Notes: a model not told the origin generated them from the sequence alone. 33,876 nt of DNA from an uncultured Parvularcula sp. (GCA_937919225.1 CALFRH010000229.1:1-33876), one strand, 5' to 3'; counted from the first letter of the stretch, positions 11,773 to 30,752 are shown. Translations and numbers: made by a program.

Positions 11773-11848
11773 TCTAGAGTCTTTGTTTTGTCGCGCCGAT
11801 CTAGCGACACCGCCACCTTTGCGGGGTCATGCCTATTCGCTCAGCGCT

Positions 11849-12867: not shown

Positions 12868-12901
12868 ATTGTGCACGATAATGAGGTAGATTGTATGCAA
12901 T
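12868..12901. promoter_or_regulatory. paired palindromic operators (proposed GntR/FCD sites) upstream of the enoyl-CoA hydratase operon
   Basis: ATTGTGCACGAT (12868-12879), 10-nt spacer, ATTGTATGCAAT (12890-12901). Confidence 0.6.
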
Positions 12902-12920
12902 GTTGCAGCGGACTCCCATT

Positions 12921-13697
12921 ATGCCCAGTATTGATAGTCATGAAGAAGACGGGATCGTTACTGTCACCCTCAATAATCCATCCAAGCTGAACGCCATGAC
13001 TCACGATATGTGGGTGCAATTTGGTGAGCTATGGGAGAGTTTAAACGAAAATGGAGCCATTCGCTGCATTATTGTGACCGGCGCTGGAGAGCGTGGGTTC
13101 TGCCCCGGCAATGACATTAGCGAGTTTGATGAGTTCCGCTCTAATGCGGAGAAAGCAAAAGCGTTATCGGCGATCATGAACCGGGGGCGTGAGGCGATGC
13201 TCGCCTGCCCGCATCCGGTTGTCGCGAAAGTGCGCGGGGCGTGCGTGGGCGGTGGGCTTGAGATTGCGGCCATGGCTGACATGCGGATTTGTAGCGATAA
13301 TAGCCGATTTGGGGCGCCCTTGAACCGGATTGGCCTTACCATGGCTTATGAGGAAATGCTGCCCATTTGGCGCATCGCGGACCGGCCAACCATGTTTGAA
13401 TTCCTCGTTGAGGGGCGGCTTATTGATGCTGCGGATGCTAAGCAACGGGGGCTGGTGAATAGGGTCGTTCCCGAAGCGGATCTTGACGGCGAGGTTGCTG
13501 AGTGCGCCCAAAAGATAGCTGCAGGCCCGCCCTTGGTTCATCGCTGGCACAAGCGCTTCCTTGATCGACTTGAGACAGATCATCAGCTTACCGACGCTGA
13601 CCATGAAGAGCATTATCTCGCTTTTGAAACCGAAGACTACAAGATCGGTTATCGCTCATTTTTGAGTAAGACGAAGCCAAAGTTTGTTGGGAGGTAA
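12921..13697 (+). CDS. enoyl-CoA hydratase/isomerase family protein
   Basis: MPSIDSHEEDGIVTVTLNNPSKLNAMTHDMWVQF, GAGERGFCPGNDISEF, VRGACVGGGLEIAAMADMRICSDNSRFGAPLNRIGL: crotonase fold motifs. Confidence 0.93.
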   Translation: MPSIDSHEEDGIVTVTLNNPSKLNAMTHDMWVQFGELWESLNENGAIRCIIVTGAGERGFCPGNDISEFDEFRSNAEKAKALSAIMNRGREAMLACPHPVVAKVRGACVGGGLEIAAMADMRICSDNSRFGAPLNRIGLTMAYEEMLPIWRIADRPTMFEFLVEGRLIDAADAKQRGLVNRVVPEADLDGEVAECAQKIAAGPPLVHRWHKRFLDRLETDHQLTDADHEEHYLAFETEDYKIGYRSFLSKTKPKFVGR

Positions 13698-13699
13698 TA

Positions 13700-14911
13700 A
13701 TGGATCAACCCCAAAAAGGCCCTCTCACCGGCGTGAAAGTGTTGGAGTTGGCGCATGTGATGGCGGGCCCCACATGTGGTCGTATCCTAGCTGATCTGGG
13801 TGCTGATGTTATCAAGCTAGAGCGGTTAGAGGGAGAGGATTGCCGACGCATGGCGCCGCCATGGCAAGGTGAAGAGGCTGCGGGCTTTTTGATGCTCAAT
13901 CGCAATAAGCGCGGCATCGCTGTTAACCTAAAGACCGAGGGTGGCCGAAAGGTCGTCACCCAATTGGCCCAGCGCTCTGATGTCCTCATTGAGAATTTCC
14001 GTAAGGGAACGATGGAACGTCTTGGCATCGGGTATGAGATGCTGGCGGAATTTAATCCGGGGCTCATCTACGCAGAAATCTCCGGTTATGGCCGAACGGG
14101 CCCCTATGCCGATAAGGGGGGGTTCGATCTTGTTGCCCAAGCGATGAGCGGGGTGATGAGTGTGACGGGGGAGGGGCCGGGACGACCTCCGGTGAAATCT
14201 GGCGTGCCGGTCGCCGATATCAGCGCCGGGCTTTATGCGGTGATTGGTGTCCTGGCTGCCCTGCACCATCGCCAGCAAACGGGCCAGGGGCAACGGGTTG
14301 ATACGTCTTTATTTGAAGCGGCGGCGTCCTATATGACTTGGCCGGCGGCCATGCACTTTGCTGGTGCGCCGCCGGCGGTGCCGATGGGAACCGCTCATCC
14401 ACTTGATGCCCCTTATCAGGCGTTTGAGGCGGCCGATGGGTGGTTTATTGTTGGCGCGGCCAATCAGGCAAACTGGCTTCGTCTGGTGAAAGCCATTGAT
14501 GCCCCTCAACTGGCCGAAGATCCTCGGTTCAAAGACAATCCTGCACGGGTTGAAAACTTGTCCGCACTGGTGGAGGCGCTCACCGCGATCTTCAAAACCC
14601 AACCCAAGGCCTATTGGACAGAACGGCTTGAACAAGCCGGTGTGCCCACGGGTCCCATTAATGATATCGCCGAAATGGTAGAGGATCCGCAGCTGGCCGC
14701 CCGGGGCATGGTTGCCGAAGTGCAGCATACGACCTTAGGATCTATCAAGACGATGGGGATGCCTATTCGTCTGTCCCAAACGCCTTGTGTCATGGGCAAG
14801 GGCGCCCCCGTCCTGGGTGAACATACCTGGCAGGTGCTAGCCGATGAGCTTGGCTATGATGATGCTGACATTAACGGGCTGATTGAAGAAGGGGCGGTTG
14901 CCACCGTTTGA
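13700..14911 (+). CDS. CaiB/BaiF family (class III) CoA-transferase
   Basis: GVKVLELAHVMAGPTCGRILADLGADVIKLERLEGEDCRRMAPPW, LNRNKRGIAVNLKTEGGRKVV, YGRTGPYADKGGFDLVAQAMSGVMSVTGEGPGRPPVKSGVPVADISAGLYAVIG. Confidence 0.95.
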   Translation: MDQPQKGPLTGVKVLELAHVMAGPTCGRILADLGADVIKLERLEGEDCRRMAPPWQGEEAAGFLMLNRNKRGIAVNLKTEGGRKVVTQLAQRSDVLIENFRKGTMERLGIGYEMLAEFNPGLIYAEISGYGRTGPYADKGGFDLVAQAMSGVMSVTGEGPGRPPVKSGVPVADISAGLYAVIGVLAALHHRQQTGQGQRVDTSLFEAAASYMTWPAAMHFAGAPPAVPMGTAHPLDAPYQAFEAADGWFIVGAANQANWLRLVKAIDAPQLAEDPRFKDNPARVENLSALVEALTAIFKTQPKAYWTERLEQAGVPTGPINDIAEMVEDPQLAARGMVAEVQHTTLGSIKTMGMPIRLSQTPCVMGKGAPVLGEHTWQVLADELGYDDADINGLIEEGAVATV

Positions 14912-14939
14912 CACGGGCGAAGGGATGCTGCGGCGTCCG

Positions 14940-15602
14940 TTACGCGTCCTTTAAATCAAACCCGGCGAGAAGCTCGATCACATTGTCGCCAACAATGCCC
15001 GTATGGGCCCGCATCAACCGCTCAGCGGCGTCTTCATCGCCATCCAAAATCGCTTCTAGAACCGCGCTATGTTCCTGGAACGACGTTTCAGTGCGCTTAG
15101 AGCGATTAAGCTGGCGCCGTCGATAGCCCGTCAGCTGGTTGGACAGTTTGGTTGCCATCCCCTCCAAAACCTCGTTCTGGCTTCCCTTGAAAATAAGCTG
15201 ATGGAACGCCTGGCTTTCCTCATAGTACTGATCGGCGGTCTCGCGCGTGGCGTAGACGCTATAGGCCTCATGGGTTTCTTTGAGGGTGTCCTTTTGCTCG
15301 GGCGTCATCCTGCGGGCCGCCAGCCGAGCGCTTAAGGCCTCAAGTTCCTCCATCACTTCGAACATTTGAAGCAAACGCTGAACCGGGATCTCAGCGACGA
15401 ACGCCCCGCGTTGTGGCTTCACCTCAACCAGCCCGGCGGCGGATAGCTGACGCACCGCCTCCCGCACCGGGGTGCGGGAAACCGAAAACCGATTGGCGAT
15501 TTCTTGCTCGTTAAGGTGGCTGCCGGGCGCCCTTTTGCCGGAGATGATTTCACTCTCTATGGTTCGGCTAATCCGATCGCTATGGGTCAGGTTTTCGCTC
15601 AT
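14940..15602 (-). CDS. GntR-family transcriptional regulator, FCD (FadR) subfamily
   Basis: N-terminal wHTH SGKRAPGSHLNEQEIANRFSVSRTPVREAVRQLSAAGLVEVKPQRGAFVAEI, helical FCD-like C-terminus. Confidence 0.93.
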   Translation of the reverse strand: MSENLTHSDRISRTIESEIISGKRAPGSHLNEQEIANRFSVSRTPVREAVRQLSAAGLVEVKPQRGAFVAEIPVQRLLQMFEVMEELEALSARLAARRMTPEQKDTLKETHEAYSVYATRETADQYYEESQAFHQLIFKGSQNEVLEGMATKLSNQLTGYRRRQLNRSKRTETSFQEHSAVLEAILDGDEDAAERLMRAHTGIVGDNVIELLAGFDLKDA

Positions 15603-15678
15603 TCACGTCTTCCAATGCCGGAGAAGCGCACATTTACGAGCCGAACCTCAAGATAGCAATTGCGTCCGAACAGGGAAA

Positions 15679-15711
15679 ATTGTATGCAATATTTGAGATA
15701 TTGCATAAATT
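15679..15711. promoter_or_regulatory. paired palindromic operators in the GntR/oxidoreductase divergent promoter
   Basis: ATTGTATGCAAT (15679-15690), 9-nt spacer, ATTGCATAAATT (15700-15711); they form the inverted repeat TATGCAATAT-TTGAG-ATATTGCATA (15683-15707). Confidence 0.65.
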
Positions 15712-15742
15712 TTGCCGAGTGTTGGCGTCAGGAGCAGCGAGA

Positions 15743-16750
15743 ATGAAAGCGTGCGTATTTGAACAGCATGGGGGCGTTGACCAGCTGCATATAGCAGATC
15801 TTCCAGCGCCGCGCCCAGCGGCCGATGAGGTGTTGATCCGGGTACGGGCCGTCGCGTTGAACGGATTTGATCCGATGATGCTCGCTGGTTCGACCAAGCT
15901 CAAAGTGCCGTTTCCGATGGCGCCTTGTGGCGATTTTGCGGGCGAGATTATTGAACGAGGTGATGCGGTTGATCCCCGGTGGCAAGTGGGGCAGCGGGTG
16001 AGCGGCTATCCCATTCTGCCAGGCAAGGGGATGATGGGAGAGGTCACCATGGGGGCCGCCTGTGAGGTGGTTGCTATTCCCCAGCAAAATCTTGTGACAT
16101 TGCCGGACGGTTTATCCTTTGAGCATGCGGCGGCATTGCCGGTGGCGTACGGCACGGCTTACCGGATGATGACCATGCGCGGACAGGTAAAGGCCGGTGA
16201 ACGGGTATTGATCCTCGGCGCGACCGGCGGTGTGGGTGTCGCCTGCCTGCAACTCGCCAAAGCAGTTGGGGCAGAGGTCACGGCCTGTGGCGGTGGCGTC
16301 TGGAAGGGGGAGAAGCTCCGGGAAATCGGGGCGGATCACGTCATTGATACAAGTAAGGATGATTTCCTTAGCGCCGCTCGTGATCTCGTTGGAAAACCAT
16401 CCTATGACGGGTCAAGTGATGGCGGTTATGATGTCGTTGTCAATTATATTGGTGGCGATACTTATGCAAAAAGCCTTAAACTGATCAAACGGTATGGCCG
16501 GATCTTGGTATGCGGGGCGACGGCTGGCTATGATCCCCAGACAGACTTGCGGTACATTTGGAGTTTTGAGCAGAGCGTCATTGGATCGAACGGCTGGACC
16601 GTGGAGGACCAGCAGACCCTCATGGAAATGGCCGCTGATGGACGATTGGTGCCCGTCATTCACGCTGTGCGACCGGTTGAAGAGATGGCGACTGCTATGC
16701 AAGAACTGACGGAACGCAACGTCTTTGGAAAATCGGTGTTAACCCTATGA
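15743..16750 (+). CDS. zinc-type/quinone oxidoreductase (MDR family) NAD(P)H-dependent
   Basis: MKACVFEQHGGVDQLHIADLPAPRPAADEVLIRVRAVALNGFD, LPVAYGTAYRMM, GERVLILGATGGVGVACLQLAKAVGAEVTA (Rossmann). Confidence 0.88.
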   Translation: MKACVFEQHGGVDQLHIADLPAPRPAADEVLIRVRAVALNGFDPMMLAGSTKLKVPFPMAPCGDFAGEIIERGDAVDPRWQVGQRVSGYPILPGKGMMGEVTMGAACEVVAIPQQNLVTLPDGLSFEHAAALPVAYGTAYRMMTMRGQVKAGERVLILGATGGVGVACLQLAKAVGAEVTACGGGVWKGEKLREIGADHVIDTSKDDFLSAARDLVGKPSYDGSSDGGYDVVVNYIGGDTYAKSLKLIKRYGRILVCGATAGYDPQTDLRYIWSFEQSVIGSNGWTVEDQQTLMEMAADGRLVPVIHAVRPVEEMATAMQELTERNVFGKSVLTL

Positions 16751-17166
16751 GTGCAGCTTGGACCCCCGACCGTTTGCAGGCGGAATTAGATGCTTGCCCA
16801 GCCATTGCCTTTCTCGGCCTTAAGGTGATTGATCTCGATGAGGCTGCGCTCAGCGTTCAACTTGAAATGCCATTGCGGCCCGAACTTGAGCGGGCGTCAG
16901 GCAGTGGTCAGTTCCATGGCGGGCCTGTTGCCGCGTTGCTCGATACCGCTGGCGACTATGCGGTGGCGATGGCGACCGGGGGCGGGGTGCCGACCATGAA
17001 CCTCCGTGTTGACTATTTACGGCCTAGCGTGGGGCCTCGCCTTTTGGCGGTGGCGACGTGCCGCCGGGCCGGTCGCTCGGTCGCGGTGGTGGATATTGAT
17101 CTCTTTGATGAAGAAGGCCGCCTATGCGCCATTGGTCGAGGCACCTATAGCACAAAGGTCGGATAG
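16747..17166 (+). CDS. PaaI-like hotdog thioesterase
   Basis: 139 aa; FHGGPVAALLDTAGDYAVAMATGGGVPTMNLRVDYLRPS hotdog motif; 4-bp overlap with the upstream gene. Confidence 0.87.
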   Translation: MSAAWTPDRLQAELDACPAIAFLGLKVIDLDEAALSVQLEMPLRPELERASGSGQFHGGPVAALLDTAGDYAVAMATGGGVPTMNLRVDYLRPSVGPRLLAVATCRRAGRSVAVVDIDLFDEEGRLCAIGRGTYSTKVG

Positions 17167-17168
17167 GG

Positions 17169-18656
17169 ATGTCGGGTCCTGATCTTTCTCGGCTCGTCGA
17201 TGAAACGGCGCCTGATGATGCGCCGGCCTTGACCTTTTTTGGCGGTGACGCCTCCACCGCGATAACCCTCACCTATGGTGATCTGCAAGCGAGGGTCACG
17301 ACGGTGGCTGCGGTTTTGCAGCATAAAGGGCTGCCCGCCGGTGCGGCCATTGGGATACTCGCCGAAAATCAGCTGGCGCACTTTATTGCTTACCTTGGCA
17401 TTCAGCGGGGCGGCTACGTCGCTGTGCCCATCAACCAAAAACTGGGTGAGGGGGGCATTCTCCATATCCTTGAAGATGCTGGTATCCATCTTTGTTTTAC
17501 GGACATGGTGAACGGCGCCTTGCTACCCCCCAATGTCGAAACTGTCCTCATCGACGGGGCTGAGATTGATTTGCCGCTGGTGCCTGATACGTGGACACCA
17601 TTTTCCCCTAAGACCGATCATTGGGCGACGATCATGTATACGTCCGGCTCAACTGGCACGCCGAAGGGGGTTCCCATCACCCATGCGGGCTACCGCTGGG
17701 CGATGGAGCGGTTTGAGTTTCTCCGTCCCGTGATTACCAGTGGGCCAACCTTCGTTGCCGCACCGCTTTACCATATGAATGCGCAATTCCACCTCAAAAG
17801 TATCTTGATGGTGGGCGGGCACGCGGTCCTTTTGCCGCGATTTGAAGCAACTCTCGCATGGGCGGCACTTGACGCGTTTGATCTTGCGCGCCTGACTGGT
17901 GTACCGACCATGTTTGAGCTTCTCTTAAGGGAACGGCCAGCTGCAAAAATAACGTCGGTGCAGTCCATCGGCGTTGGCTCAGCGCCATTGAGCGAAACGC
18001 TTCTCAAGCGCTTAGAAGGGGCGTTTCCCAATGCGGTTATTAGTAATGGGTATGGCACCACAGAGATTGGTCCCGCCGTCTTTGGTCCCCATCCGGATGG
18101 ACGGCCCACGCCTCCATTGTCGATTGGGTACCCAATGGCGGGGGTGGAGATACGATTGGTTGACGGTGAGGGGCCTGACCAGGGAACCCTCCTTGTGAAA
18201 ACGGGGATGCAAACCCCTGGCTATCTTCATCGTCCGGATCTTAATGAAAAAGCATTTGAGGACGGTTGGTACAATACGCGCGATGTGATGCGTTGTGACG
18301 AAGATGGCTTCTTTTATTTTGATAGCCGTTCGGATGATATGTTTGTCTGCGGGGGTGAGAACATCTTTCCTGGAGAGGTGGAAACGCGCCTGTTGAGTCA
18401 CCCCCTCGTGGAGGAGGCGGCGGTGGTTCCCCTTCCAGATTCTGTAAAGGGCGCCCTTCCCGTGGCCTTTGTTATAGTGCAATCGCCCACTTCTGAAGAA
18501 GGGCTTAAACAACACACGCTGGCCTTGGGTCCCGCCTATGCGCATCCCCGATATATTGCGTTTCTTGACGCTATGCCGCTGAACGGCGTGAACAAAGTCG
18601 ATAAGAAAAAGCTGACGGCCTTAGCGGAGGAGCAGTTTGGGGGCTTGCGCGCTTAG
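17169..18656 (+). CDS. AMP-binding acyl-CoA synthetase/ligase
   Basis: IMYTSGSTGTPKGVPITHAGY (P-loop), ISNGYGTTEIGP, GWYNTRDVMRCDEDGFFYFDSRSDDMFVCGGENIFPGEVE. Confidence 0.93.
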   Translation: MSGPDLSRLVDETAPDDAPALTFFGGDASTAITLTYGDLQARVTTVAAVLQHKGLPAGAAIGILAENQLAHFIAYLGIQRGGYVAVPINQKLGEGGILHILEDAGIHLCFTDMVNGALLPPNVETVLIDGAEIDLPLVPDTWTPFSPKTDHWATIMYTSGSTGTPKGVPITHAGYRWAMERFEFLRPVITSGPTFVAAPLYHMNAQFHLKSILMVGGHAVLLPRFEATLAWAALDAFDLARLTGVPTMFELLLRERPAAKITSVQSIGVGSAPLSETLLKRLEGAFPNAVISNGYGTTEIGPAVFGPHPDGRPTPPLSIGYPMAGVEIRLVDGEGPDQGTLLVKTGMQTPGYLHRPDLNEKAFEDGWYNTRDVMRCDEDGFFYFDSRSDDMFVCGGENIFPGEVETRLLSHPLVEEAAVVPLPDSVKGALPVAFVIVQSPTSEEGLKQHTLALGPAYAHPRYIAFLDAMPLNGVNKVDKKKLTALAEEQFGGLRA

Positions 18657-19120
18657 TCGATCACCCCAAGCACCAGCTGCGCCATGAGAGCGGACCCTAA
18701 ATAGGTCCCGACAAAGACAAAAATGGCGAGCACTACAAATTGCAGCCCGAATTGACGGAACGTGTTCACATCACTGCGTCTTAGTCCTAGGGCTGCAATG
18801 GCAAGCACCGGCGTGATGGTGGCCACGAAGCTGAGAGCGGAAATGGTCTCGATCACCCACGCCGTACCCGGAATGCCGGGGAGACCGACGAGGGTTGCGA
18901 CAATCGATATCCAAAAGAGCGCCGGCAGCTTGCCGGGCATGATTTTAACAAGCCCATAGCCTACCATCACAATAAGAAAGAGCAGCCCGAGACCCGGTAG
19001 GATAGCGACAAGATTCTCCGTTCCCGCTGCAAAATGGGCGAGGAGCGTTAAGGCGAGCGTCACGACCAGGATATGAGCTTTTCCGCTGAAGCTTGGCTCT
19101 TTTAAAGCTTGCTCAGTCAT
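18653..19120 (-). CDS. small integral membrane protein, partner of the DUF3100-like protein
   Basis: 155 aa, several hydrophobic segments; overlaps the 3' end of the upstream membrane protein gene by 8 bp. Confidence 0.6.
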   Translation of the reverse strand: MTEQALKEPSFSGKAHILVVTLALTLLAHFAAGTENLVAILPGLGLLFLIVMVGYGLVKIMPGKLPALFWISIVATLVGLPGIPGTAWVIETISALSFVATITPVLAIAALGLRRSDVNTFRQFGLQFVVLAIFVFVGTYLGSALMAQLVLGVID

Positions 19121-19934
19121 CGGATGCCCCCTTTTGTTGACGCCCGTCGAGCAAGGTAAAATATCGCTCCGCCAGCGGGAGGGTGATAAAAATGGTGACG
19201 AAAAGGCCCGTGAGGCCTGTCATGAGGTTACTGCTGGCGGCGAGAGCGCTGATCTCTTCGGTTTGTTCTGGATAAATCGCAGCGAGAGTGGTGGAGCATG
19301 CCCCTGTCATGCTGGCGCTTCCGGTACCGCACGCCATGGCGAGCGCTCGTGGGTCAAAAAGAGATAGGCCCGCGACGAGGGAGGGCATGATACTGAAGAA
19401 AATCACGCCAAAGATCGTGCCGCAAATATAAATGCCCATGACGCCTGTCCCCTCGGGACTGCCGCCGCCATATTTTCCAAAGATAAAGGCAATGCCGCCC
19501 TCCCGCGCGATGGAAAAGGTAGCGCCAATTGCCTCCCGGCCCATCTTAAACACCAGGACGGCTAACGGCATGGATAAGGCCATGGTGCCCAAATTGCCTA
19601 ACTCTTGAAGGATGAGGGCGGGGCCCACTGCGGCCACATTCTGAAATTGTGGCCCGATAAACACGGATAAAAAAGCGATAAGGGGCATGACGGCCACTGA
19701 CAGCGCGGATGCGGCCGCTTGACTAAAGTCTGCCGGTATCAATCGGCTCATCCATCGGTTCACATTGGGGTTAAGCGCTAGGCCAACAAAGAACGCAAAG
19801 ACCAGGGGCAATAGGGTGATGGTGAGCGATCCTATGGGAATACGCACCAAGCCGATCTGCTCTGCAATAACGACGCATACCGCCAATGCTAAGTGGAGTT
19901 TCCACAGACCTAAAAAGTGTAGGGATGCCTTCAT
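19113..19934 (-). CDS. DUF3100-like integral membrane protein (putative transporter)
   Basis: 273 aa, multiple TM; KLHLALAVCVVIAEQIGLVRIPIGSLTITLLPLVFAFFVGLAL and MACGTGSASMTGACSTTLAAIYPEQTEEISALAASSNLMTGLTG. Confidence 0.6.
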   Translation of the reverse strand: MKASLHFLGLWKLHLALAVCVVIAEQIGLVRIPIGSLTITLLPLVFAFFVGLALNPNVNRWMSRLIPADFSQAAASALSVAVMPLIAFLSVFIGPQFQNVAAVGPALILQELGNLGTMALSMPLAVLVFKMGREAIGATFSIAREGGIAFIFGKYGGGSPEGTGVMGIYICGTIFGVIFFSIMPSLVAGLSLFDPRALAMACGTGSASMTGACSTTLAAIYPEQTEEISALAASSNLMTGLTGLFVTIFITLPLAERYFTLLDGRQQKGASDD

Positions 19935-21388
19935 GCCTTTGATCCCTCATAGGCATCCATCAGGTGTTGGAGGGCGGTGGCGAGTGGTTCGCGACCTGCA
20001 TTGGTATCAAGCACGCCGCGCACATGGCCCATGCGGACAATCACAAGATCCATTGAGGGCACGACGAACGTATATTGCCCTCCAATTCCCAACATAAAAT
20101 AGGCATCCGCTGGTAAGGGCCAGGCATCTGCCGCAGGGTATTGGTTCAGCCAAACTTGGCCCCCATAGATAGACCCTTTCCATCCGTCAGGGCCGGGACC
20201 TGTCCAATATTTCCCCGACCATCCAGGGGCAGGGGTACGGACGAAATCGATAAACCCGGGCGGGAACAGGCGTTCGCCTTGCCACACCCCACCTTGCAGA
20301 AAGAGGAGCCCGAGGCGGACCCAATCCCGCGCGGTGCCGTAGCAGAACCCAGACGTCACCAGGTTACCATAAGGGTCAGGCTCAAGCACCATTTGCCTTA
20401 TGCCTATACGATCAAAAAGGGCTCGCTGGGGCCAGCTGAGATAGTCTTCGCCCAGGGCTTCGACCGTCCGTTTGACGATAGCGCCGAGGGCCAGCGTATC
20501 GCTATTCTTATACGCACCAAAAGTGCCGGAGGGGTGGGCCGCAGCGCGGCTGAGAGCCAGTTGGAAAACGTCAATAGCGCCGCCATACATATAGCTGTGG
20601 TCGGGAAACCCTTTTTCGGGTGTGTAGTCACCGGACCAGGCAGCAGTAAAATCGAGACCCCCGCACATTTGCATCAAGTCGGCGATCCGGATGGCAGAAC
20701 GGGGATCGTCCGTCCTCGACCATTCGGTGATTGGCGCTTTATCCTCGAGCGTCAGATGTCCCTCTTGCGCTAATCGGCCAATAAAAGCGCCCGTCAGGCT
20801 TTTGCCCATCGACCAGCTGGGAAGTTGCATCGTGCCATGAGCGCCATGACCGTAGCGCTCCGCAATCAATTGGCCCTTATGGGCGATTAAGAGGGCCGCC
20901 GTATAGGTGTTGGGTGATGCCGCAAACGCGCTGTCCACAGCGTTCGCAAGCTTTACCTTATTCCAAGACGCGCCGGGTTGCTCTTCGGCGTTCCGGTCGC
21001 CCATCGGCCAATCCATCTCATCAGCAGGCGGCAGGGTCGATGTAATTGGGCGGGGTGTGAAATAGGGCTTTGCAGACCCTAACGGGAGAACAACAGCGCC
21101 ATGATCCCCCACAATACGGGCGGCCCGTTGGGTACCATCGTCGAGGGTGGCAAGGACGAGCTGCGCATCCTCACGGACCTCTACCCGAACAGGCAGTCCA
21201 TCTTCAGTCTCGGGTTTGATGCTATAGCGAAGAATATCTTCGACGGAACGATTGGAGACAAAGACGCCGGAGCATACCCCTTTTGCGATCAAAGCGAGGT
21301 CTAGGGACCGCCGCTCACTGATGCTTGGTATACCATCGATCTGGGCGGCGCGAAGGTCAGCAGTGGCAAAAGCTTGGCTCATCAGCAA
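19931..21388 (-). CDS. serine hydrolase, beta-lactamase/S12 family
   Basis: SWSMGKSLTGAFIGRL (SxxK: SMGK) and YKNSDTLALGAIV (YxN). Confidence 0.88.
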   Translation of the reverse strand: MLMSQAFATADLRAAQIDGIPSISERRSLDLALIAKGVCSGVFVSNRSVEDILRYSIKPETEDGLPVRVEVREDAQLVLATLDDGTQRAARIVGDHGAVVLPLGSAKPYFTPRPITSTLPPADEMDWPMGDRNAEEQPGASWNKVKLANAVDSAFAASPNTYTAALLIAHKGQLIAERYGHGAHGTMQLPSWSMGKSLTGAFIGRLAQEGHLTLEDKAPITEWSRTDDPRSAIRIADLMQMCGGLDFTAAWSGDYTPEKGFPDHSYMYGGAIDVFQLALSRAAAHPSGTFGAYKNSDTLALGAIVKRTVEALGEDYLSWPQRALFDRIGIRQMVLEPDPYGNLVTSGFCYGTARDWVRLGLLFLQGGVWQGERLFPPGFIDFVRTPAPGWSGKYWTGPGPDGWKGSIYGGQVWLNQYPAADAWPLPADAYFMLGIGGQYTFVVPSMDLVIVRMGHVRGVLDTNAGREPLATALQHLMDAYEGSKA

Positions 21389-22980
21389 ACCCCCTTATCG
21401 AACCGCAGACCCCTCGCCAACCAGGCATTTATGGTGATCCCCGTGACCTGACGGTCTGGATTGGTGTCTACCATGACGGAAAACTCGCCGGGGGCCGCAT
21501 AATCGAGGGCGCGGTCACACCGAAAGGTGGCGTAATTACCGCCCACCAACTGAAGGGGGACGGCATGGTGGCTGCCTTTGGGCCCGACAAAGCGGATGAA
21601 CAACTGGCCCCCTTTTGTCTGCGTGATCAGAGCATCGGACGCCAATGACGCCGAATGATAAGACCCGATTAGCCCATCCGGCTCGATGGTAGGGGGAGGG
21701 AGTGTATGAAGTGTCGTTCTGATATTTTCTTGGGGGAGATGAAACGAGATGACACCGCTCTCTTGGTCAATATGGAGATGCCCCTGCGCCTGGTCCCCAT
21801 CAAGGGCTAAACCATTGGCGTTTTTGAGAAACTGAAAATGTCGCCACCCGCAACTTAAGTCGATGGCCGTCGCCGTTTGCGTGACGTGAAAGATGAGATC
21901 GTTCTCTCGGTCAACATATTGAACGGTCTGTGGAGCGGGATCGGTTATAGGGGCAGGCGCTGCTGCGCCACGGGGTGTGCCGTTCAGCTGATCAAGGATC
22001 CTTTCGGCAATGGGGTTAGGATCCAGCACATGATTAAGGAGTACAATGACAGAATGGCCAAGGTCCGGGCGATGAATTTTAGCCATCCGCCACCCGCGAA
22101 GGCCGCCAGTGTGTCCAACCTCTGTGATGCCCTCTCTTTGCGACACCCTGAGCCCAAAGCGATAGGCGGATGCTGTCCCATCATTGAATGAGGTTGCCGA
22201 CTGAAGGCGGGCGACAATCGGATGGAGCGGGTGATCCTGTTGGTGAAATACCTGTTCCCAGGCCAATAAATCCGTCAATGTGGAGATGATGCCAGCATCA
22301 CCAGCCCATTCGAGATTGGTCTTTGCGACCATGTAGCTTCCGCACCCATCAGGTTCGTACCCCACCGTATCGTCTGGTAAGGGGCCGCCTGTGGACGTAG
22401 TATCAAGGTGCGTATCCTCCATCCCCAGCGGCGCGAACAGCCATTCATCGGCCAGTTGCGGCAGAGGCCGTCCGGTCACTTTCTCCAAAACACGTCCCAA
22501 CATCATGAAGTTGGTGTTCGAATAGGCAAAACGAGCGCCGGGCGGGAAGTCAGGGTCGGCGAGACAGTCGACCATCCTGTCAGCATCGTCATGGGTAAAT
22601 GGGCTTTCGGCTATTGCGCCCGTGAGCATCGCGGCCGTCCAATAGTCCTTTATGCCTGATTGGTTTGTGCAGAGATGGTAAAGATTTAGACTGGTGGGAT
22701 AGGATGTCATCTCGGTTAAAAAGTGCCGGGGGTGATCGCTCAGGCGGAGGAGGTCCCGGTCAGCTGCCATCAACACGAGTGCGCAGATAAATTGTTTAGT
22801 GACAGAGCAGATGCGGAACTGCGTGTCCGGTGTGAAGGCCAGCTGGCTTTCAGCCTGGGCAAACCCGTATCCCGCCGCGTGGGTGACGGCGCCCTGTTCG
22901 ATGATGCCAATAGCGGCACCCAGTGTTGGCGCGGACAGCGCGTCGCCAATCATTTCTTCGATGAATGTGTGATCACTCAT
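21382..22980 (-). CDS. S12 serine hydrolase, D-aminopeptidase (DAP)-like
   Basis: 532 aa; FRICSVTKQFI (SxxK), YSNTNFMMLG (YxN), VGHTGGLRGW (HxG), long C-terminal beta-rich region as in DAP. Confidence 0.75.
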   Translation of the reverse strand: MSDHTFIEEMIGDALSAPTLGAAIGIIEQGAVTHAAGYGFAQAESQLAFTPDTQFRICSVTKQFICALVLMAADRDLLRLSDHPRHFLTEMTSYPTSLNLYHLCTNQSGIKDYWTAAMLTGAIAESPFTHDDADRMVDCLADPDFPPGARFAYSNTNFMMLGRVLEKVTGRPLPQLADEWLFAPLGMEDTHLDTTSTGGPLPDDTVGYEPDGCGSYMVAKTNLEWAGDAGIISTLTDLLAWEQVFHQQDHPLHPIVARLQSATSFNDGTASAYRFGLRVSQREGITEVGHTGGLRGWRMAKIHRPDLGHSVIVLLNHVLDPNPIAERILDQLNGTPRGAAAPAPITDPAPQTVQYVDRENDLIFHVTQTATAIDLSCGWRHFQFLKNANGLALDGDQAQGHLHIDQESGVISFHLPQENIRTTLHTLPPPTIEPDGLIGSYHSASLASDALITQTKGGQLFIRFVGPKGSHHAVPLQLVGGNYATFRCDRALDYAAPGEFSVMVDTNPDRQVTGITINAWLARGLRFDKGVC

Positions 22981-25304
22981 TGTCGCGGCTGAGGCTCACC
23001 CAAATGGGCACCAAAGAACCGACCGATTTTGTTGGCTGCGAAGGCATATCGATCCCCGCGCCCTTGGTGGGCATGGTTGGTACCAGGAAAAAGAACTAAA
23101 TCATACTCCTTACCGTGTTCTGCCAATGCGTCTAATAGTTTCATCATATTTGAGATCGGGACGTTGGCGTCTGCCGTCCCGGCGATCAAGAGGATCGGCG
23201 CAATGATATTGGCCGCAAGGGCGGGGGTGCCATTCTTCTCATACCATTCCTGATTGGTCTTGGGATCGCCATTGGCAAATTCGATCCAATGAACATGATC
23301 AAATAGATCCGTTTCGGGAACACTGATTGAGCCGGCTTTGTAGAATTCTGGAGCGTCGGTGAGGGCCCTCGTGCCAATATACCCGCCCCACGAGTTTCCT
23401 AAAACACCCACGCGGTCTAGGTCCATATAGGGACGGTTGGCCGCCATGTCGCGAAGGCCTGCCACATGATCTGCAATGACCCCCTCCGGCCATTTGCGGT
23501 GAGTATCAAGATTATAGGCGCGTCCCCGGCCGGGTGTGCCGGGTGCATCAATCATCACAATGACAAAGCCAAGATGATTGAGATAGGAAAGAAGTGTTTG
23601 ATACTCTCCTCCCGGATAGCCTGTCCCTTCACCAACGAAGGAGCGGCGCATCACATTACTTTGCATCCCCCCATATATCCGTTCAATAACGGGATAAGAC
23701 TTGGACGGGTCGAAATGGGGCGGCTTCATAATAAGACCATACATGTCTGTGGTCCCGTCGGCTGCCTTGACAGTCACCTCTTCGGGGGGAAGCCAGCCGT
23801 CCCGGAAGTCTTCATCAATATGAGCCTTTGCCACGGTGGATAGGACTTCTCCGTCCGCTGTGATGAGGTCGGTCTGACGGGGGCGGTCAAGGTGAGAGTG
23901 GGTGACGAGGAAAAACGCGTTATCCGGCGACGCCTTGGCTTGATATTGTCCGGGCAGAGAGGTGAGTTGTTGAGCTTCGCCTGTTCCGTCTAGCCGCACC
24001 CGGTTTAGGTGTCGGTCCCAAGGGCGCCCTTCATCGCTGCCGGCAATGTAGTAGAGCCATCCCCCGTCCTCATCGATGCTGACCACATTGCCAACAAAGT
24101 GGTCGCCTTGGGTCACCTGCCCCTGAAGCCGTCCCTTCCGATCATAATGGTACCAATGGAACCAACCGTCTCGGTCTGACCGCCATAAGAACCCGTCCCC
24201 TGACGGCAAGAAGTGCAGGCTTTTCGTGCCGCCCGGCCATTTGACCCAGCCGTCCCGGCGCTTTTCTTTGACGAGGGTTCGCGATTTTCCGGTGCGCGCA
24301 TTAACGGCGACGAGTTCTTGCTTGGTGATATCTCGATTATACCGAATAAAGACAAACTCTTCACCATCTGGAGACCAATCGACGAAGAAAGCGAGGTGCT
24401 GATCATCATCCCCTGTTTTTGTCGGGGTCATCTCGCCGGTGGCGGCGTCGAAAATAGCGAAACTGGTGATGGGCAAAGGTTGGCCGGCGCGCGCCCAATA
24501 GTCGAACCATTCCACCGTTTCATTGGTTTGCAGATAATCAACAATGGGAAAGCCTGTGACCCCTTTTGTGTTATGACGGCGCGCGACGACCTTTGAGGAG
24601 TCCGGTGACCAGGGGGAGCCTGAACTCTCCCACAAGTCTCCGGCAAAAAACCATCTATCCTGCGTCGCCCCATCGCTGGTCAGTTGACGGACCTTACCAT
24701 CTTCGGCGGAGCGAAGGCCGAAATCATGGTCGATAAGCGTCGCGAGGTGTTTACCGTCAGGGGATTTGACTTCCCGTCGATCCCACCCGTTGATCGGGAA
24801 CATTTGTCTGACAATATTTGCATCCCCATGGGGGTTGATATCTCCAATACGGGTGAACTCTTTGGTGTCGATGGCATAGGACCATTTGGCGCCATTAAGG
24901 TGTAGGATGAGGGCGCCCTTTTCTTTATCAACGGACGTGACCTTGAGGTCTTCGCCTGAGAGATCTTGCGCCAATGCGGCCTGCACAAGCGCGGCTTTGG
25001 TTGTCAGTTGCGTCTGTTCCCCCTCAGGCAGGGAGATGGAATAATAGGCTTCGCCATCAGCCTCTTCGATGGCGGTCCAAAACCCGCTCCCATCTTCGTG
25101 CCAATGGGCCTCAACGCTCCCCCCGCTGACCGAACCACTCACCCCATTGAGATAATCGCGTACCCCAGCGGGATCCCATGGTGCTGCCGCATGGCTGGCT
25201 GCTAAGAAAAAGACCAAATAGGTCACCAACCCTGAAAGCCAGGCATAGCGACCTATCTTATGGCTGATCGGGTGCTCTGGGCGGATGTGAGAAGTTGACA
25301 TCAC
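22977..25304 (-). CDS. S9 family prolyl oligopeptidase / dipeptidyl peptidase IV-like
   Basis: 775 aa; N-terminal signal-like segment, DPP4 beta-propeller (WSPDSSKVVARR, DWSPDGEEFVFIRYNRD) and catalytic RVGVLGNSWGGYIGTRAL, FPGTNHAHQGRGDRYAF. Confidence 0.92.
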   Translation of the reverse strand: MMSTSHIRPEHPISHKIGRYAWLSGLVTYLVFFLAASHAAAPWDPAGVRDYLNGVSGSVSGGSVEAHWHEDGSGFWTAIEEADGEAYYSISLPEGEQTQLTTKAALVQAALAQDLSGEDLKVTSVDKEKGALILHLNGAKWSYAIDTKEFTRIGDINPHGDANIVRQMFPINGWDRREVKSPDGKHLATLIDHDFGLRSAEDGKVRQLTSDGATQDRWFFAGDLWESSGSPWSPDSSKVVARRHNTKGVTGFPIVDYLQTNETVEWFDYWARAGQPLPITSFAIFDAATGEMTPTKTGDDDQHLAFFVDWSPDGEEFVFIRYNRDITKQELVAVNARTGKSRTLVKEKRRDGWVKWPGGTKSLHFLPSGDGFLWRSDRDGWFHWYHYDRKGRLQGQVTQGDHFVGNVVSIDEDGGWLYYIAGSDEGRPWDRHLNRVRLDGTGEAQQLTSLPGQYQAKASPDNAFFLVTHSHLDRPRQTDLITADGEVLSTVAKAHIDEDFRDGWLPPEEVTVKAADGTTDMYGLIMKPPHFDPSKSYPVIERIYGGMQSNVMRRSFVGEGTGYPGGEYQTLLSYLNHLGFVIVMIDAPGTPGRGRAYNLDTHRKWPEGVIADHVAGLRDMAANRPYMDLDRVGVLGNSWGGYIGTRALTDAPEFYKAGSISVPETDLFDHVHWIEFANGDPKTNQEWYEKNGTPALAANIIAPILLIAGTADANVPISNMMKLLDALAEHGKEYDLVLFPGTNHAHQGRGDRYAFAANKIGRFFGAHLGEPQPRQ

Positions 25305-25320
25305 GGGAAGTCCCTCGACA

Positions 25321-25353
25321 AATGTATATTATTATTGAAAGATTGTACACAAT
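25321..25353. promoter_or_regulatory. palindromic operator in the S9-peptidase/BAAT divergent promoter
   Basis: ATTGTACACAAT (25342-25353), with a weak second copy AATGTATATTAT (25321-25332). Confidence 0.5.
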
Positions 25354-25374
25354 TTTACGCTTTGTCGAGGGGTA

Positions 25375-26733
25375 ATGACCTATTCTTCTTCTATCTCCGT
25401 CGCCACGAACCCGCCCAATGCGGCCCTCTACCAGCTTCAAGGTTTAGATTTCCAAGGCTTACCCCCTGAAACCCATATGCGCATAGAGGTGCGTCACCAG
25501 GATGCCGCTGGCTGGGATTGGGGGGCGTCGTTTGCCGGGCAGACGGATGCTGAGGGCCAGCTCACCATGGGTGCTGTTAAAGGTGCCGGGGAGGCGGCGG
25601 ATAGTCTGACTTGGCTATGGAACCTTCAACCCATAGCGGGGGAAGCAGCGCTGATTGAAGCCGTCCAGCGGGGCACTCTTATTGGCTTGGCCCCCGCATT
25701 GGAAACGCCGCTATCGCCGCTTGAGCTTGATCTAACGGTTCTCCTTGATGGTGATGCCATCTTCGCATCCCCTCTTTCCCTACCCCGCTGTCCGAAGAGT
25801 GTTCGTGCAGAGACCATCCAACACCAAAAATTGCGGGGGCAATGGTTTAGACCAATCGACCAGGCGGTGAGGGGAGCTGTGCTCGTCCTTGGGGGATCTG
25901 AGGGCGGGATTGTCCCCGCGCGGGCGGCGGCCTTGGCGGCAGAAGGGTACGCCGCGCTGGCCCTTGGCTATTTTGATTATGAGGACCGGCCCAAGGCCGC
26001 CAGCAATCTCCCCCTCGATTACTTTGAGGCCGCCCTTGCTTGGATGGGAGAACAAGTTCCAGGTGAAAAACGATTTGTGTGGGGAGGGTCCCGGGGGTCG
26101 GAGGCTGCTCTTCTGTCGGCGGTCCATTTTTCGGCATTGGTTGATGGTGTCATTGGTTGGGTTCCTGGGCCGCTGGTTCACACAGGGTTTGATATGGTGG
26201 GGGGAACAGACTTTGCAGTGATCGAAGACCCTATGTGGACACTGAAGGGCGTGCCGGTGCCAGGCGCCCCCCACCTGCCGGTGACGGCAGCTCGACAATC
26301 GGCGCGAGAGCGCGCCTATTCGTCTATGCCAGGATATCGGTATACAGCGGAATTTCGAGATCTTTGGGCAACCCCTGGGTTGGGTAAACCCTATGGCATC
26401 CCGATTGAACAGGTAAAGGCGCCGGTCTTGTTGGTGGGGGCAGAGGATGACGGCATCTGGCCTTCGGCTGAAGGGGCGGAGATACTCTTAGCCCGCCATC
26501 AACAAAGGGGGGGAGAGGCAACGGTGGAGGCGATTATCCTGCCCAAGGCGGGTCACGCCCTTGGCATGCCGAATGAGCCGCGCCCCTATTCCCATGTGGC
26601 CTATTGGCAGGGGGGATATTCCGGAGTTGAAGGCGGCTTTATTGACCAGGGCGGCACCCCTGAAACCAATGCCAAAGCGGCCCGTGACGGTTGGGCGGCG
26701 GCGCTTCGCTTCTTGGGCTGCGACGCGGTTTAG
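25375..26733 (+). CDS. acyl-CoA thioesterase / bile acid-CoA:amino acid N-acyltransferase (BAAT) family protein
   Basis: 452 aa; N-terminal ACOT/BAAT beta domain and alpha/beta hydrolase GAVLVLGGSEGGIVPARAAALAAEGYAALALGYFDYE, RFVWGGSRGSEAALL. Confidence 0.85.
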   Translation: MTYSSSISVATNPPNAALYQLQGLDFQGLPPETHMRIEVRHQDAAGWDWGASFAGQTDAEGQLTMGAVKGAGEAADSLTWLWNLQPIAGEAALIEAVQRGTLIGLAPALETPLSPLELDLTVLLDGDAIFASPLSLPRCPKSVRAETIQHQKLRGQWFRPIDQAVRGAVLVLGGSEGGIVPARAAALAAEGYAALALGYFDYEDRPKAASNLPLDYFEAALAWMGEQVPGEKRFVWGGSRGSEAALLSAVHFSALVDGVIGWVPGPLVHTGFDMVGGTDFAVIEDPMWTLKGVPVPGAPHLPVTAARQSARERAYSSMPGYRYTAEFRDLWATPGLGKPYGIPIEQVKAPVLLVGAEDDGIWPSAEGAEILLARHQQRGGEATVEAIILPKAGHALGMPNEPRPYSHVAYWQGGYSGVEGGFIDQGGTPETNAKAARDGWAAALRFLGCDAV

Positions 26734-28469
26734 GGGTGTTCTTCATCCGCCCCGCCCCAGGTGAAGGTCGGCCCTTCTTCTAAGAGCGTGATCAAGGGCT
26801 TGAGATGGTCCGTATAGGTCTTCCAGCGACCGACAGACCCCTTATAAATCGGTTGCCGAACCTGCCAGCGACTAGGGGTCCGAACTGGGCGCTCGGTCTC
26901 ATGGAACCGTGCGCAGGCTTCATCCCATGGGAGGCCGCATGCGTCTACAAGGCCTTTAGCGTGCTGGTCGAAATCGGCGACCATCCCTTCATAGGGAAGA
27001 TGGTGAATTCGTCCGGGCAGCACTTTTTCCCAATGGGACACAAGGCGGCCGTAAAGGGCGTAATAGCGGGCAAAACTATCCTGACGGGCACGGAAGGCCT
27101 GAAGACTATCCGTAAACTCCGTCATATAACAGGAAATGAAGACGTCTCGGGGGTCCCGGTGGCAATGAATGATCGTGCCGTTTGGAAAAAGGGCGGCAAA
27201 CAGTCCAAGATGGCTGAAATTGAAGGGGAATTTGTCCACCACCCGGGCGGGGTCACCGCTTGTCGCGGTGGCAAGCGCTTCAAGATAGCCTACGGCGGCA
27301 TCCTTCAACGCCCCGCTAATGGCCTCCTGTTTAAGGAGTTCAGGGTAAGTCCCAAACCCTCCTGCGGTGAGGTGCGCTGGAATGCGCGCGAGGTCCGGTA
27401 ACTCTCCTGCCCCCTCTCCTTGGGGATGGCTGGCCAGGACTTGTTCAGCCAGGGTGGTCCCGGTGCGGGGGAGCCCCACAATAAGGACGGGCTTTGTGGA
27501 TGGAGAGCCATGGGCAGCGAGGTCCGTCACAAGGTCGCGGGTAAAGACGGCTTCTAACCGGTCGACTTCTGCTTCGGCGGCGGCCGCGTCGAAGGGGGCG
27601 GTTTTTGCGACAGCGTCGTTTGCCCGCTTAGCAGCGGTGAATGCCGCATCCCAGTCTCCCCGGCGGTCTCGAGCCCGGGCAATGGCGAAGGACAGCCGAA
27701 CCTGATCGGGTTCCTGCAATCGCGGATCGTCCACAATGGTCTCCGCCTGCGAAAGTTCGTCTGGTGTTGCGGTATCGGTCCGGAGGCTGAGAAGAGCGGC
27801 GAGGGCGCGGGGGTGGCCCGGTCGTTGGTTGAGGGCGTCGCGAAGCGTACTTGCCGCTGCGTCGAACTGGCCCAGTTCCGTCTCGCATGAGGCGACTTGT
27901 ATGGCAGCGGCGGTCAGATTGGGTTGAGCCGCCAGCGCTCGTCGGTAGGCGGATAAGGCTTCCGCCGCCTTGCCCTGGTGGCGCAAGACCCCGCCCAAAG
28001 CCATAGCGGGTTTAGGGTGGTTGAGGACCTTAACCGCCCGCTCGAAGAGTTGGGCGGCCTCGTCGAGGAGGCCTTGATCACGATAGAGACTTCCCAAATT
28101 GGTCAGCACTTCGCCATTGTTAGGGTTTTGGAGAAGAGTGGCTTCGAATGCCTTTCGCGCCTCGTCTAGGGCGCCGGCGGCAAGGGCCACCTTGCCTAGA
28201 TCAGCAAGGACCCGCGCGTCGCCATCCGTTAGCTGAGCAGCTGTCCTAAGGGCGCTGAGGGCACCGTCCTGTTGGCCGGACTGTGCCAGGGCGATCCCCA
28301 GCCCATAATGAACACCAGGGTTTTTGGCATCAAGGGCGAGGGCCTTTTTGTAGAGTGTAATAGCGGTCGCAAGATCGCCCGAGCGGTGCCTGTCGGCCGC
28401 CGCCCGGGCGATATTGGCTGGACTCTCAGTCCCGTGGATTAAAAGCTCGCTGTTAGATTTGCTGTCCAC
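26730..28469 (-). CDS. TPR-repeat sulfotransferase family protein
   Basis: 579 aa; N-terminal TPR units (GVHYGLGIALAQSGQQDGALSALRTAAQL...) and C-terminal PAPS-type sulfotransferase motifs (KPVLIVGLPRTGTTLAEQVLASHP; IIHCHRDPRDVFISCY). GTG start. Confidence 0.9.
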   Translation of the reverse strand: MDSKSNSELLIHGTESPANIARAAADRHRSGDLATAITLYKKALALDAKNPGVHYGLGIALAQSGQQDGALSALRTAAQLTDGDARVLADLGKVALAAGALDEARKAFEATLLQNPNNGEVLTNLGSLYRDQGLLDEAAQLFERAVKVLNHPKPAMALGGVLRHQGKAAEALSAYRRALAAQPNLTAAAIQVASCETELGQFDAAASTLRDALNQRPGHPRALAALLSLRTDTATPDELSQAETIVDDPRLQEPDQVRLSFAIARARDRRGDWDAAFTAAKRANDAVAKTAPFDAAAAEAEVDRLEAVFTRDLVTDLAAHGSPSTKPVLIVGLPRTGTTLAEQVLASHPQGEGAGELPDLARIPAHLTAGGFGTYPELLKQEAISGALKDAAVGYLEALATATSGDPARVVDKFPFNFSHLGLFAALFPNGTIIHCHRDPRDVFISCYMTEFTDSLQAFRARQDSFARYYALYGRLVSHWEKVLPGRIHHLPYEGMVADFDQHAKGLVDACGLPWDEACARFHETERPVRTPSRWQVRQPIYKGSVGRWKTYTDHLKPLITLLEEGPTFTWGGADEEHP

Positions 28470-30679
28470 GACCGTGTTTCACCATATCCCCATCCGGCAA
28501 AGCCAGAGCCGAGGAATAGCACAAAGTACTCCTCGTCCGTGAGGTTTTTACCGACAATCCGCGCCGTGAGGGTATCGTTGATCTCATAGGACAAGTTTGC
28601 CTCGAACAGCGTGTAGCCATCAAGCTGCAGATCGTTGTCGTCGTCAACCTCTTGCTCCCCCACATGGCGAAGGCCGCCGCCAATGCTCAGGCCTTCAATC
28701 CCAAGCGAGGCGGGGATTTGATATTGCGCGAAGATATTGAAGAGATGCTTCGGCGCGTTTGGAATGGCGTTACCGATGAGGCTTTCTTCGGCTGAGTTTG
28801 TGATTTCCGTATCGAGGTACGAGTAGGACGTAATCACGTCGAGGCCGGGTAGGACCTCCCCGATCACTTCCAGCTCAACGCCCTTATGTTCCTGTTCACG
28901 GGGTGAAGGTTCGGCACGGACGCCATCACCGATCACTGAGGGAACATTGTCCCGCTCAATAAGGAACGCCGCAATACTCGCCCCCACAAGGCCATCCATG
29001 AACTCGCCTTTTACCCCAAGCTCATATTGAGTGCCCTGTTCGGGGTCGATGGGCTCGCCGGTTGCTGTCAGGGATTGCGTGGGGATAAAGCCCTCTGAAT
29101 AGCTGAAGTAAGCAAAGACATTGTCCATCGCCTCATAGACAATACCGGCGCGCAATAAGGTGTCATCAACCTTGCCGTCAACATCCAGATCATATCCGGA
29201 CGCGTCCGGGTCACCGGGGTCTGCGAACGGACCTTCTGAGCCACCATTGTTGATCCCGGTACCATCAAATTCTTCTTCTTCGTACCGTGCGCCCAGCAAG
29301 ATCTGTAGGCGGTCGACTGGTCTGAGGATGAGTTGTGCGGTCAAAGACAGATTCTGTTCGCTTCGCTCCGTCTGGTCCCAGGGGAAGGTGGGCTGGACCG
29401 AGATGGGCACATCGTCAACACTCGGCGCATCGGTTGTGGGCGTCAGGATGTTGGCATATTGAGCGAAGAACGTTGAAGGATCCTGGAGCTGATAGTCTTC
29501 CTGAAAGGTCCGGTCCTGATACTGACCGAGTAGAAGGAAAGTATGCTCTTGACCACCAAGTTCGAAATCCCCCCCGAGGGCGAGTTCGGTGAAGGTTGTC
29601 TCATATTTGTCTTCGTCATCGTAGGTATACCAGAAGGCATAAGGGCCTTCGACGCCAAATCCGAATGCTTCTGGCCCACCAAGGCCGAGGAAGCTGACAA
29701 AGCGGTGGCGACGCTCGGATGTGGCGTACCCAGCCGATGCGCGGACATAGAGATTGTCGTTGATCTGATGCCGGAGGTTCGCGAGCACATCTTTGTTCTC
29801 ATACTCATTGTCACACCCTTGAACGAAGGCGCAGCCATTCCATTCGGTGGGAATGAAATCTGGCACTGATCCTTCACCGCGATAATCACGGGAGAACAAG
29901 GAAACAGGATCCGCTTGACCTGACTCATAGCTGAAATCGATCTCAAGGATTGTGTCCGGGCTCAAATCAATGTCGAGGGCAGCTTTGACCGGTGTTTTCT
30001 CGATGCCCTCGCGGTTCCGGAAGCCGTTCCGGGTCTCATAGGCGACACCCGCATACCCGCGAACACTGCCGGACTCGGTAAGGGGACCGGAAATCTCAGC
30101 GGAGTAACGCTGACGGTCAAAGGAGCCTGTCTCAAGGAGGAGGTCGATTTCCAAACTGTCGGAGGGGCGCCGGGTCACAATGTTAATGGCGCCGCCATAG
30201 TTCAGTGTTCCCAAAGTAATTGATGTCGGGCCGCGCAGGAATTCGATCCGCTCAATACCGAGAAGGTCGCGATCCACATTGGTCCCGATCATAACGCTGT
30301 TGAGCAGAATCCCTTCCGCCACGCTAAGGTTGAACCCGCGGGCCTGGAACCGGTTATCGAAACCGCCATAGCTACCGACATTCACATAGCCGGGCACAAG
30401 GCCAATCGTGTCTTCAAGGTCGCGCGCGGCGGTGAGATCGAGAAGGTCGTCCGTCAAAACCGTGATGGCCTGGGGCGTCTCAACGATCGGGAGCAAGATC
30501 TTCGTTGCGGTGCTGGCATCGGTGGGGCGGAAGAATTCCACCTGGCCCGTCACAACAATTTCATCCACGACTTCGCCCGATTGCTCCTGCGCATTGGCGA
30601 TGGCCGTTCCCATGGCGGCAAGGCAGCACCCAGAAAGGAGCGCTGAGCGATGACCCTTAGAAATCCTGTAAATCGACAT
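28439..30679 (-). CDS. TonB-dependent receptor (siderophore-receptor-like)
   Basis: Signal-like N-terminus MSIYRISKGHRSALLSGCCLAAMGTAIANAQ, plug ETPQAITVLTDDLLDLTAARDLEDTIGLVPGY...RGFNLSVAEGILLNSV...IERIEFLRGPTSITLGTLNYGGAINIVTRRP, C-terminal ...SWTANLTASF. The track start at 30751 reads through the operator. Confidence 0.93.
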   Translation of the reverse strand: MSIYRISKGHRSALLSGCCLAAMGTAIANAQEQSGEVVDEIVVTGQVEFFRPTDASTATKILLPIVETPQAITVLTDDLLDLTAARDLEDTIGLVPGYVNVGSYGGFDNRFQARGFNLSVAEGILLNSVMIGTNVDRDLLGIERIEFLRGPTSITLGTLNYGGAINIVTRRPSDSLEIDLLLETGSFDRQRYSAEISGPLTESGSVRGYAGVAYETRNGFRNREGIEKTPVKAALDIDLSPDTILEIDFSYESGQADPVSLFSRDYRGEGSVPDFIPTEWNGCAFVQGCDNEYENKDVLANLRHQINDNLYVRASAGYATSERRHRFVSFLGLGGPEAFGFGVEGPYAFWYTYDDEDKYETTFTELALGGDFELGGQEHTFLLLGQYQDRTFQEDYQLQDPSTFFAQYANILTPTTDAPSVDDVPISVQPTFPWDQTERSEQNLSLTAQLILRPVDRLQILLGARYEEEEFDGTGINNGGSEGPFADPGDPDASGYDLDVDGKVDDTLLRAGIVYEAMDNVFAYFSYSEGFIPTQSLTATGEPIDPEQGTQYELGVKGEFMDGLVGASIAAFLIERDNVPSVIGDGVRAEPSPREQEHKGVELEVIGEVLPGLDVITSYSYLDTEITNSAEESLIGNAIPNAPKHLFNIFAQYQIPASLGIEGLSIGGGLRHVGEQEVDDDNDLQLDGYTLFEANLSYEINDTLTARIVGKNLTDEEYFVLFLGSGFAGWGYGETRSWTANLTASF

Positions 30680-30718
30680 CTTATCCCTCATTTTGCTGCG
30701 ACGCAGCATCTCTGCTAC

Positions 30719-30752
30719 TTTGTGCACGATCATTAAATTTATTGCATACAAT
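30719..30752. promoter_or_regulatory. paired palindromic operators upstream of the TonB receptor
   Basis: TTTGTGCACGAT (30719-30730), 10-nt spacer, ATTGCATACAAT (30741-30752, reverse complement of ATTGTATGCAAT). Confidence 0.65.

Follow-up and report, generated by a model that had tools for sequence, protein, structure and literature searches.

Paired palindromic operators mark a predicted FCD-GntR regulon across an 18-kb gene block of an uncultured Parvularcula sp.

The window analyzed here, the whole stretch of 33,876 nucleotides from an uncultured Parvularcula sp. (GCA_937919225.1, CALFRH010000229.1), contains an 18-kb block of genes that most probably forms one regulon, in which the locally encoded GntR regulator of the FCD subfamily would bind strong and weak palindromes and repress six transcription units. 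The regulon reading is well supported, because the sites are rare, double and kept at orthologous promoters, and follow the closer homologues of the regulator. Paired palindromes for FCD regulators have been described before in catabolic divergons; what is new is this regulon, with its unusually regular operator.

The block begins with two plus-strand genes, which encode an enoyl-CoA hydratase/isomerase (ECH; 12921–13697; PF00378) and a family III CoA-transferase (CaiB/BaiF; 13700–14911; PF02515). They are followed by the minus-strand gene of the GntR regulator of the FCD (FadR) subfamily, the candidate binder of all the sites (14940–15602), and by the plus-strand operon of a zinc-type MDR oxidoreductase resembling quinone/enoyl-CoA reductases (15743–16750; PF00107/PF08240), a hotdog acyl-CoA thioesterase (4HBT; 16747–17166; PF03061) and an AMP-binding acyl-CoA ligase (17169–18656; PF00501). 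The right part holds a minus-strand operon that encodes an S9 dipeptidyl-peptidase-IV-like peptidase (22977–25304; PF00930/PF00326), a D-aminopeptidase (DAP; 21382–22980; PF00144 and DAP_B; best PDB match the D-aminopeptidase 1ei5, E 1.5e-65), an S12-type serine hydrolase of the beta-lactamase fold (19931–21388; PF00144), a DUF3100 protein (19113–19934; PF11299) and, at the operon end, a 155-aa ORF with no Pfam match (18653–19120). Next come a plus-strand gene for a BAAT-like acyl-CoA:amino acid N-acyltransferase / acyl-CoA thioesterase (25375–26733; PF08840) and a minus-strand pair for a TonB-dependent receptor (28439–30691; PF00593/PF07715, TIGR01783) and a TPR-sulfotransferase (26730–28469; PF13469 and TPR). 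Four double sites cover the starts of all six units.

The four 12-mers reported in the first-pass annotation were all found, as three copies of ATTGTATGCAAT and one of ATTGTACACAAT. The predicted strong operators ATTGTATGCAAT are located on the plus strand at 12890–12901, 19 bp 5´ of the ECH ATG (12921), and at 15679–15690, between the regulator gene and the divergent MDR operon, and on the minus strand at 30741–30752, upstream of the TonB receptor operon; ATTGTACACAAT occupies 25342–25353 (plus strand) in the divergent BAAT / S9-DAP-S12 promoter. The site at 25342 has the form TTGT-AC-ACAA, and the other three read TTGT-AT-GCAA, with one half altered. Their placement before the transcription units of the block is borne out, with four regions fronting six units, and the sites end sharply at the block edges, which are flanked by galactose genes to the left and by cobalamin genes to the right. 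The repetition is non-random, as had been claimed: the pattern ATTGTRYRCAAT yields four sites, or five strand-matches, in the window versus 0.02 expected from dinucleotide shuffles, and none of 100 shuffles reaches five. Allowing three mismatches gives 23 matches in the window versus 21.9 expected, which is no excess; therefore, the signal resides in the near-exact sites.

The genome-wide motif check that the same annotation had named came out in its favor, as the 12-mer is not common outside the block: exact ATTGTATGCAAT occurs three times in the 5.4-Mb assembly of origin, each time within the block. The closest match elsewhere, ATTGTATACAAT on contig C445, lies within an SDR-like reading frame and has no partner copy at 21–22 bp. 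The assembly (G000; 695 contigs, of which the window is C229) may be a mixed bin, because it measures 5.4 Mb against about 3 Mb in the listed congeners and shows 5.7% contamination; the uniqueness of the 12-mer holds for whatever the assembly contains. None of the ORFs of at least 110 codons spans any of the four strong sites. Called ORFs that begin at the TTG of ATTG inside the sites (12891, 15680 and 30751) reflect mechanical choice of the start codon and are artefacts. The likelier starts are the ATG at 12921 for ECH, 15743 for the MDR gene and an ATG at about 30691 (or 30709) for the TonB receptor.

Each strong site has a weaker copy 21–22 bp away, centre to centre, a double form that the first-pass annotation overlooked. 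The predicted weak operator copies are ATTGTGCACGAT at 12868–12879, 22 bp 5´ of the strong site at 12890, ATTGCATAAATT at 15700–15711, 21 bp from that at 15679, and AATGTATATTAT at 25321–25332, on the S9 side and 21 bp from that at 25342 (all three on the plus strand), together with a minus-strand copy at 30719–30730, which reads TTTGTGCACGAT on the plus strand and lies 22 bp from the strong site at 30741. When a matrix derived from the strong sites only was used for scoring, an offset of 21/22 bp was the best among offsets of 8 to 89 (combined mean score +7.3; background −9.9, sd 3.1). Partner scores are 7.1–11.8 in the window versus at most 1.6 at 16 other high-scoring sites of the own and comparison genomes. 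In a pair search of the own genome, the fewest mismatches were those of the window pairs (0 and 0 at 22 bp; 2 and 3 at 21 bp), and the remaining matches had three mismatches each; the one such match examined, C28:8071, lies within a reading frame and its weak half scores 0.1. Sites on C28, C244 and C445 and other near-exact sites were rejected as further regulon members, as they lie within ORFs or stand single without a partner. A possible third weak copy, AATAGATACATT, is present at 30763–30774, 22 bp beyond the strong site at 30741 on the opposite side.

One scan of species genomes turned up an uncultured Sphingomonadales MAG (L011, G398) with a regulator of 65% identity to that of the window. 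One contig of this MAG (C403) carries ECH (65.5% identical), CaiB (68%), the regulator, MDR (64%), thioesterase (67%) and ligase (50%) orthologues with a TonB receptor relative (27%); another (C10) carries S9 (46%), S12 (57% over 327 aa) and BAAT (46%) orthologues with a D-aminopeptidase (37%) and a TPR-sulfotransferase relative (33%). The orthologous-promoter check proposed earlier found the palindrome at three of the four promoter regions. The sole exact ATTGTATGCAAT of the MAG lies between BAAT and S9, matching the layout of the window, and its partner ATTGTATACTCT is 21 bp off (L037:4641 and 4662); at the TonB promoter, ATTGTGCACAAT is paired with ATTGCATACGAA over a distance of 21 bp; the ECH promoter, the counterpart of the 12890 site (L041:8866), has ATTGTATGCAAC with a half-site as its partner. 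A weak copy at 21–22 bp thus accompanies 4/4 window sites and, at exactly 21 bp, 2/3 MAG sites. No site was found at the MAG regulator/MDR promoter. When the window was scanned with a matrix derived only from the three MAG sites, the four window sites scored highest, and a Markov null gave no such site in 300 trials. The sequence around the conserved sites has diverged between the two genomes. A search of 62 genomes of the family gave no regulator homologue closer than about 41%, and within the order 398 genomes yielded no match at E≤1e-45 apart from the own genome; plasmid records contain 44–49% homologues in different gene neighbourhoods. The full block was found in two genomes only.

The regulator belongs to the GntR/FCD family (PF00392, 67.8 bits; PF07729, 101 bits; both over cut-off). 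Its best NCBIfam match, the PhnR-type regulator of Burkholderia (TIGR03338), scores 136.3 bits, under the equivalog cut-off of 271.5. Operators of the FadR subfamily are TKGT/ACMA palindromes around a centre of 2 or 3 nt, in which a helix arginine reads G (PMC4494728; PMC7797058). The window sites are palindromes of this TKGT-N2/3-ACMA form, with a 2-nt centre, as the form is defined in PMC4494728, and the recognition helix SRTPVRE (within SVSRTPVREA), when aligned by eye, has its arginine at the position of Arg45 of FadR and Arg45 of Atu1419. A TTGTATACAA palindrome (at most one mismatch, at most 700 bp from the regulator start) is present at 5/8 closer-homologue loci versus 0/22 distant FCD loci (Fisher p = 4e-4), where the eight include the window locus but not the MAG orthologue, whose lack of a site there would make the count 5/9. 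This contrast is supportive but not clean, because the closer and distant groups also differ in taxonomy. The protein at 14940–15602 thus stands as the best candidate by motif form and homologue promoters; the argument from a site at its own promoter, on which the first-pass annotation had relied, is weaker than claimed, because the MAG regulator/MDR promoter has no site and autoregulation is not conserved.

TTGTATACAA-type palindromes also lie near regulator homologues (43–46%) in four loci of other alphaproteobacterial families: L058 (6378–6399), L059 (5713), L060 (6476) and L061 (5720). Weaker, incomplete copies also occur 21 bp away (L058, L059, L060, L061), although at the last three some other offset does as well or better.

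The regulon could be real and yet be served by a different GntR/FCD protein encoded elsewhere, with the local regulator acting on another target, which we consider unlikely. Seven FCD proteins are encoded in the own assembly, and four above the Pfam cut-off plus one weak match in the MAG; another MAG FCD gene is preceded by ATTGTATACTTT, and the bare promoter of the MAG orthologue also leaves room for this reading. Against it, the regulator gene lies within the block in both genomes, the motif tracks homologues of the local regulator across the class, and around the ECH-CaiB cluster of the closest paralogue in the own assembly (C496, about 40% identical) the palindrome is a different one, ATRGYATRCYAT. 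FCD operators resemble one another, and the MAG protein in question (L044, gene at 2154, beside an oxidoreductase and a racemase-like gene, with ATTGTATACTTT directly upstream) may be a rival binder, or ATTGTATACTTT may simply be the usual motif of the family.

We therefore keep to the local regulator, and the double palindromes are very probably the binding sites of this block-encoded repressor. The model that we infer comprises binding by the FCD protein, two bound dimers, repression, an inducer class and a substrate. FCD-GntR dimers would occupy the strong ATTGTRYRCAAT palindrome and the weaker copy two helical turns (21–22 bp) away, side by side on one DNA face, with the strong site as the anchor and the weak site conferring cooperativity. 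Promoter occupancy near the start codons would keep ECH-CaiB, MDR-thioesterase-ligase, BAAT, S9-DAP-S12-DUF3100, TonB receptor-sulfotransferase and probably the regulator's own gene off until an inducer appears. The inducer that lifts repression would be an acyl-CoA or an acidic intermediate of the substrate; carboxylic acids are the usual ligands of FCD proteins (PMC4494728).

Marginally less likely than binding by another protein is that the local regulator binds but mainly activates, or activates some units and represses others. The distance from strong site to likely start codon differs (about 20–75 bp), and core promoter elements could not be placed: a sigma-70 scan gave no convincing hexamers at the sites and no excess over shuffles, because of which steric blocking is an assumption. 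However, the sites are near start codons, where a bound protein would block polymerase, and both relatives with solved structures, Atu1419 and AlkR, act as repressors (PMC7797058, PMC12042122); repression remains our preferred reading. That the 12-mers are chance copies or a local repeat with no regulatory role is hardly credible: loose matches with three mismatches do occur at chance frequency, but the near-exact sites are far above shuffles, are clear of long ORFs, come in double form without exception and recur at orthologous promoters amid diverged surroundings.

The window regulator is weakly similar (E 9e-9) to PDB entry 6z74, which we take to be Atu1419, a VanR-group FCD protein of Agrobacterium fabrum. 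Atu1419 likewise represses a catabolic block with CoA-pathway enzymes, through an even-centred palindrome, ATGTATACAT, and a degenerate second copy, and its recognition-helix arginine reads G, a role predicted from sequence for the window protein; in contrast, its sites are 109–190 bp apart and looped by a tetramer, whereas the window copies are 21–22 bp apart, and it serves a hydroxycinnamic acid pathway (PMC7797058). AlkR of Pseudomonas aeruginosa (VanR-group FCD, PDB 9ISW; E 7e-8) shares the ATTGT...ACAAT palindrome and has acyl-CoA as its effector, but its site is an odd 13 bp, ATTGTCAGACAAT, with a 1-nt spacer, and its reported control is of alkane genes (PMC12042122). GntR-family dimers of Escherichia coli NanR bind neighbouring repeats cooperatively, as we propose for the window, although these are direct GGTATA repeats, and NanR has a special N-terminal extension and another pathway (PMC8012715). 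For the FadR subfamily, the motif TKGT-N2-ACMA and double sites are already described (PMC4494728); the window regulator was matched to none of the orthologous groups named in the passages considered, and, as far as seen, only this block has a strong-weak pair that keeps to 21–22 bp at all its promoters. The literature searched offered nothing useful linking TTGTATACAA with GntR, on PmiR, or linking DUF3100 with D-aminopeptidase.

The C496 paralogue resides in another ECH-CaiB-S9 cluster, whose palindromes read ATAGCATACTAT, ATGGCATACTAT and ATGGTATGCTAT, two of them, judged by eye from the sequence, with a second copy about 19 bp off. Its wing tip is PRKRAR, compared with PQRGAF in the window protein and PRRGAF in the MAG protein. 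This difference agrees with the published association of wing position 59 with the K base of the operator (PMC4494728). More speculatively, and as a possibility rather than an expectation, a clade of alphaproteobacterial FCD regulators may use a fixed unit of strong and weak even-centred palindromes, two helical turns apart and bound by two adjacent dimers; the paralogue beside the parallel ECH-CaiB-peptidase cluster would have rewritten this code (third base A/G in place of T, spacing about 19 bp rather than 21), with an accompanying change of the wing tip (RGAF to KRAR), and the regulon would govern the uptake and breakdown of an undescribed acylated D-peptide. Paralogous regulators with different wing tips and palindromes in one assembly offer a natural test of FCD site choice. 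Besides the FCD regulator, the C496 locus (L039; G000:C496:8000-20000, 941–12001) encodes ECH, CaiB, S9, alpha/beta hydrolases and an MFS transporter, and its ATRGYATRCYAT palindromes lie at 7160, 10357 and 11938; the CaiB gene of this locus (5046–6199) is split over two overlapping frames, a frameshift or assembly error.

The block enzymes suggest, as a guess, that an acylated peptide with D-amino acids in it is taken up and degraded, because they include the D-aminopeptidase (1ei5 match), S9 and S12 hydrolases, BAAT, the TonB receptor and the CoA enzymes. The TonB receptor would import the peptide, the hydrolases would cut it, and the acyl part would be routed through CoA activation (CoA-ligase/ECH/CaiB/MDR). 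In the MAG (L011, 7016–9827), the ECH promoter is common to a divergent operon that the window lacks, encoding a DppA-type M55 D-aminopeptidase, a DgcA-like racemase and a DgcN-like N-acetyltransferase, all under their equivalog cut-offs (456 bits versus 480 for the DgcN-like protein). Enzymes of these kinds serve D-amino acid breakdown, in which DgcN has a role (PMC12363236). Microcystin was considered as the substrate, and the D-Glu genes and S12 hydrolases fit; we do not claim it. As one regulon, a set of vaguely annotated enzymes (S9, D-aminopeptidase, S12, DUF3100, BAAT, TonB receptor, sulfotransferase and CoA enzymes) becomes one predicted pathway under one switch, which narrows the substrate search and gives DUF3100 a context.

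To the left of the block (1–12784) lies an ordinary galactose/lactose use cluster, with genes for a sugar kinase, an SSF symporter, GH36, galT, galK, a DeoR regulator, an FAD oxidoreductase, GH42 and an aldose epimerase. Cobalamin genes follow directly after the block on the right (31029–33876) and encode a CobT-like phosphoribosyltransferase, CobS, a phosphatase and an adenosyltransferase.
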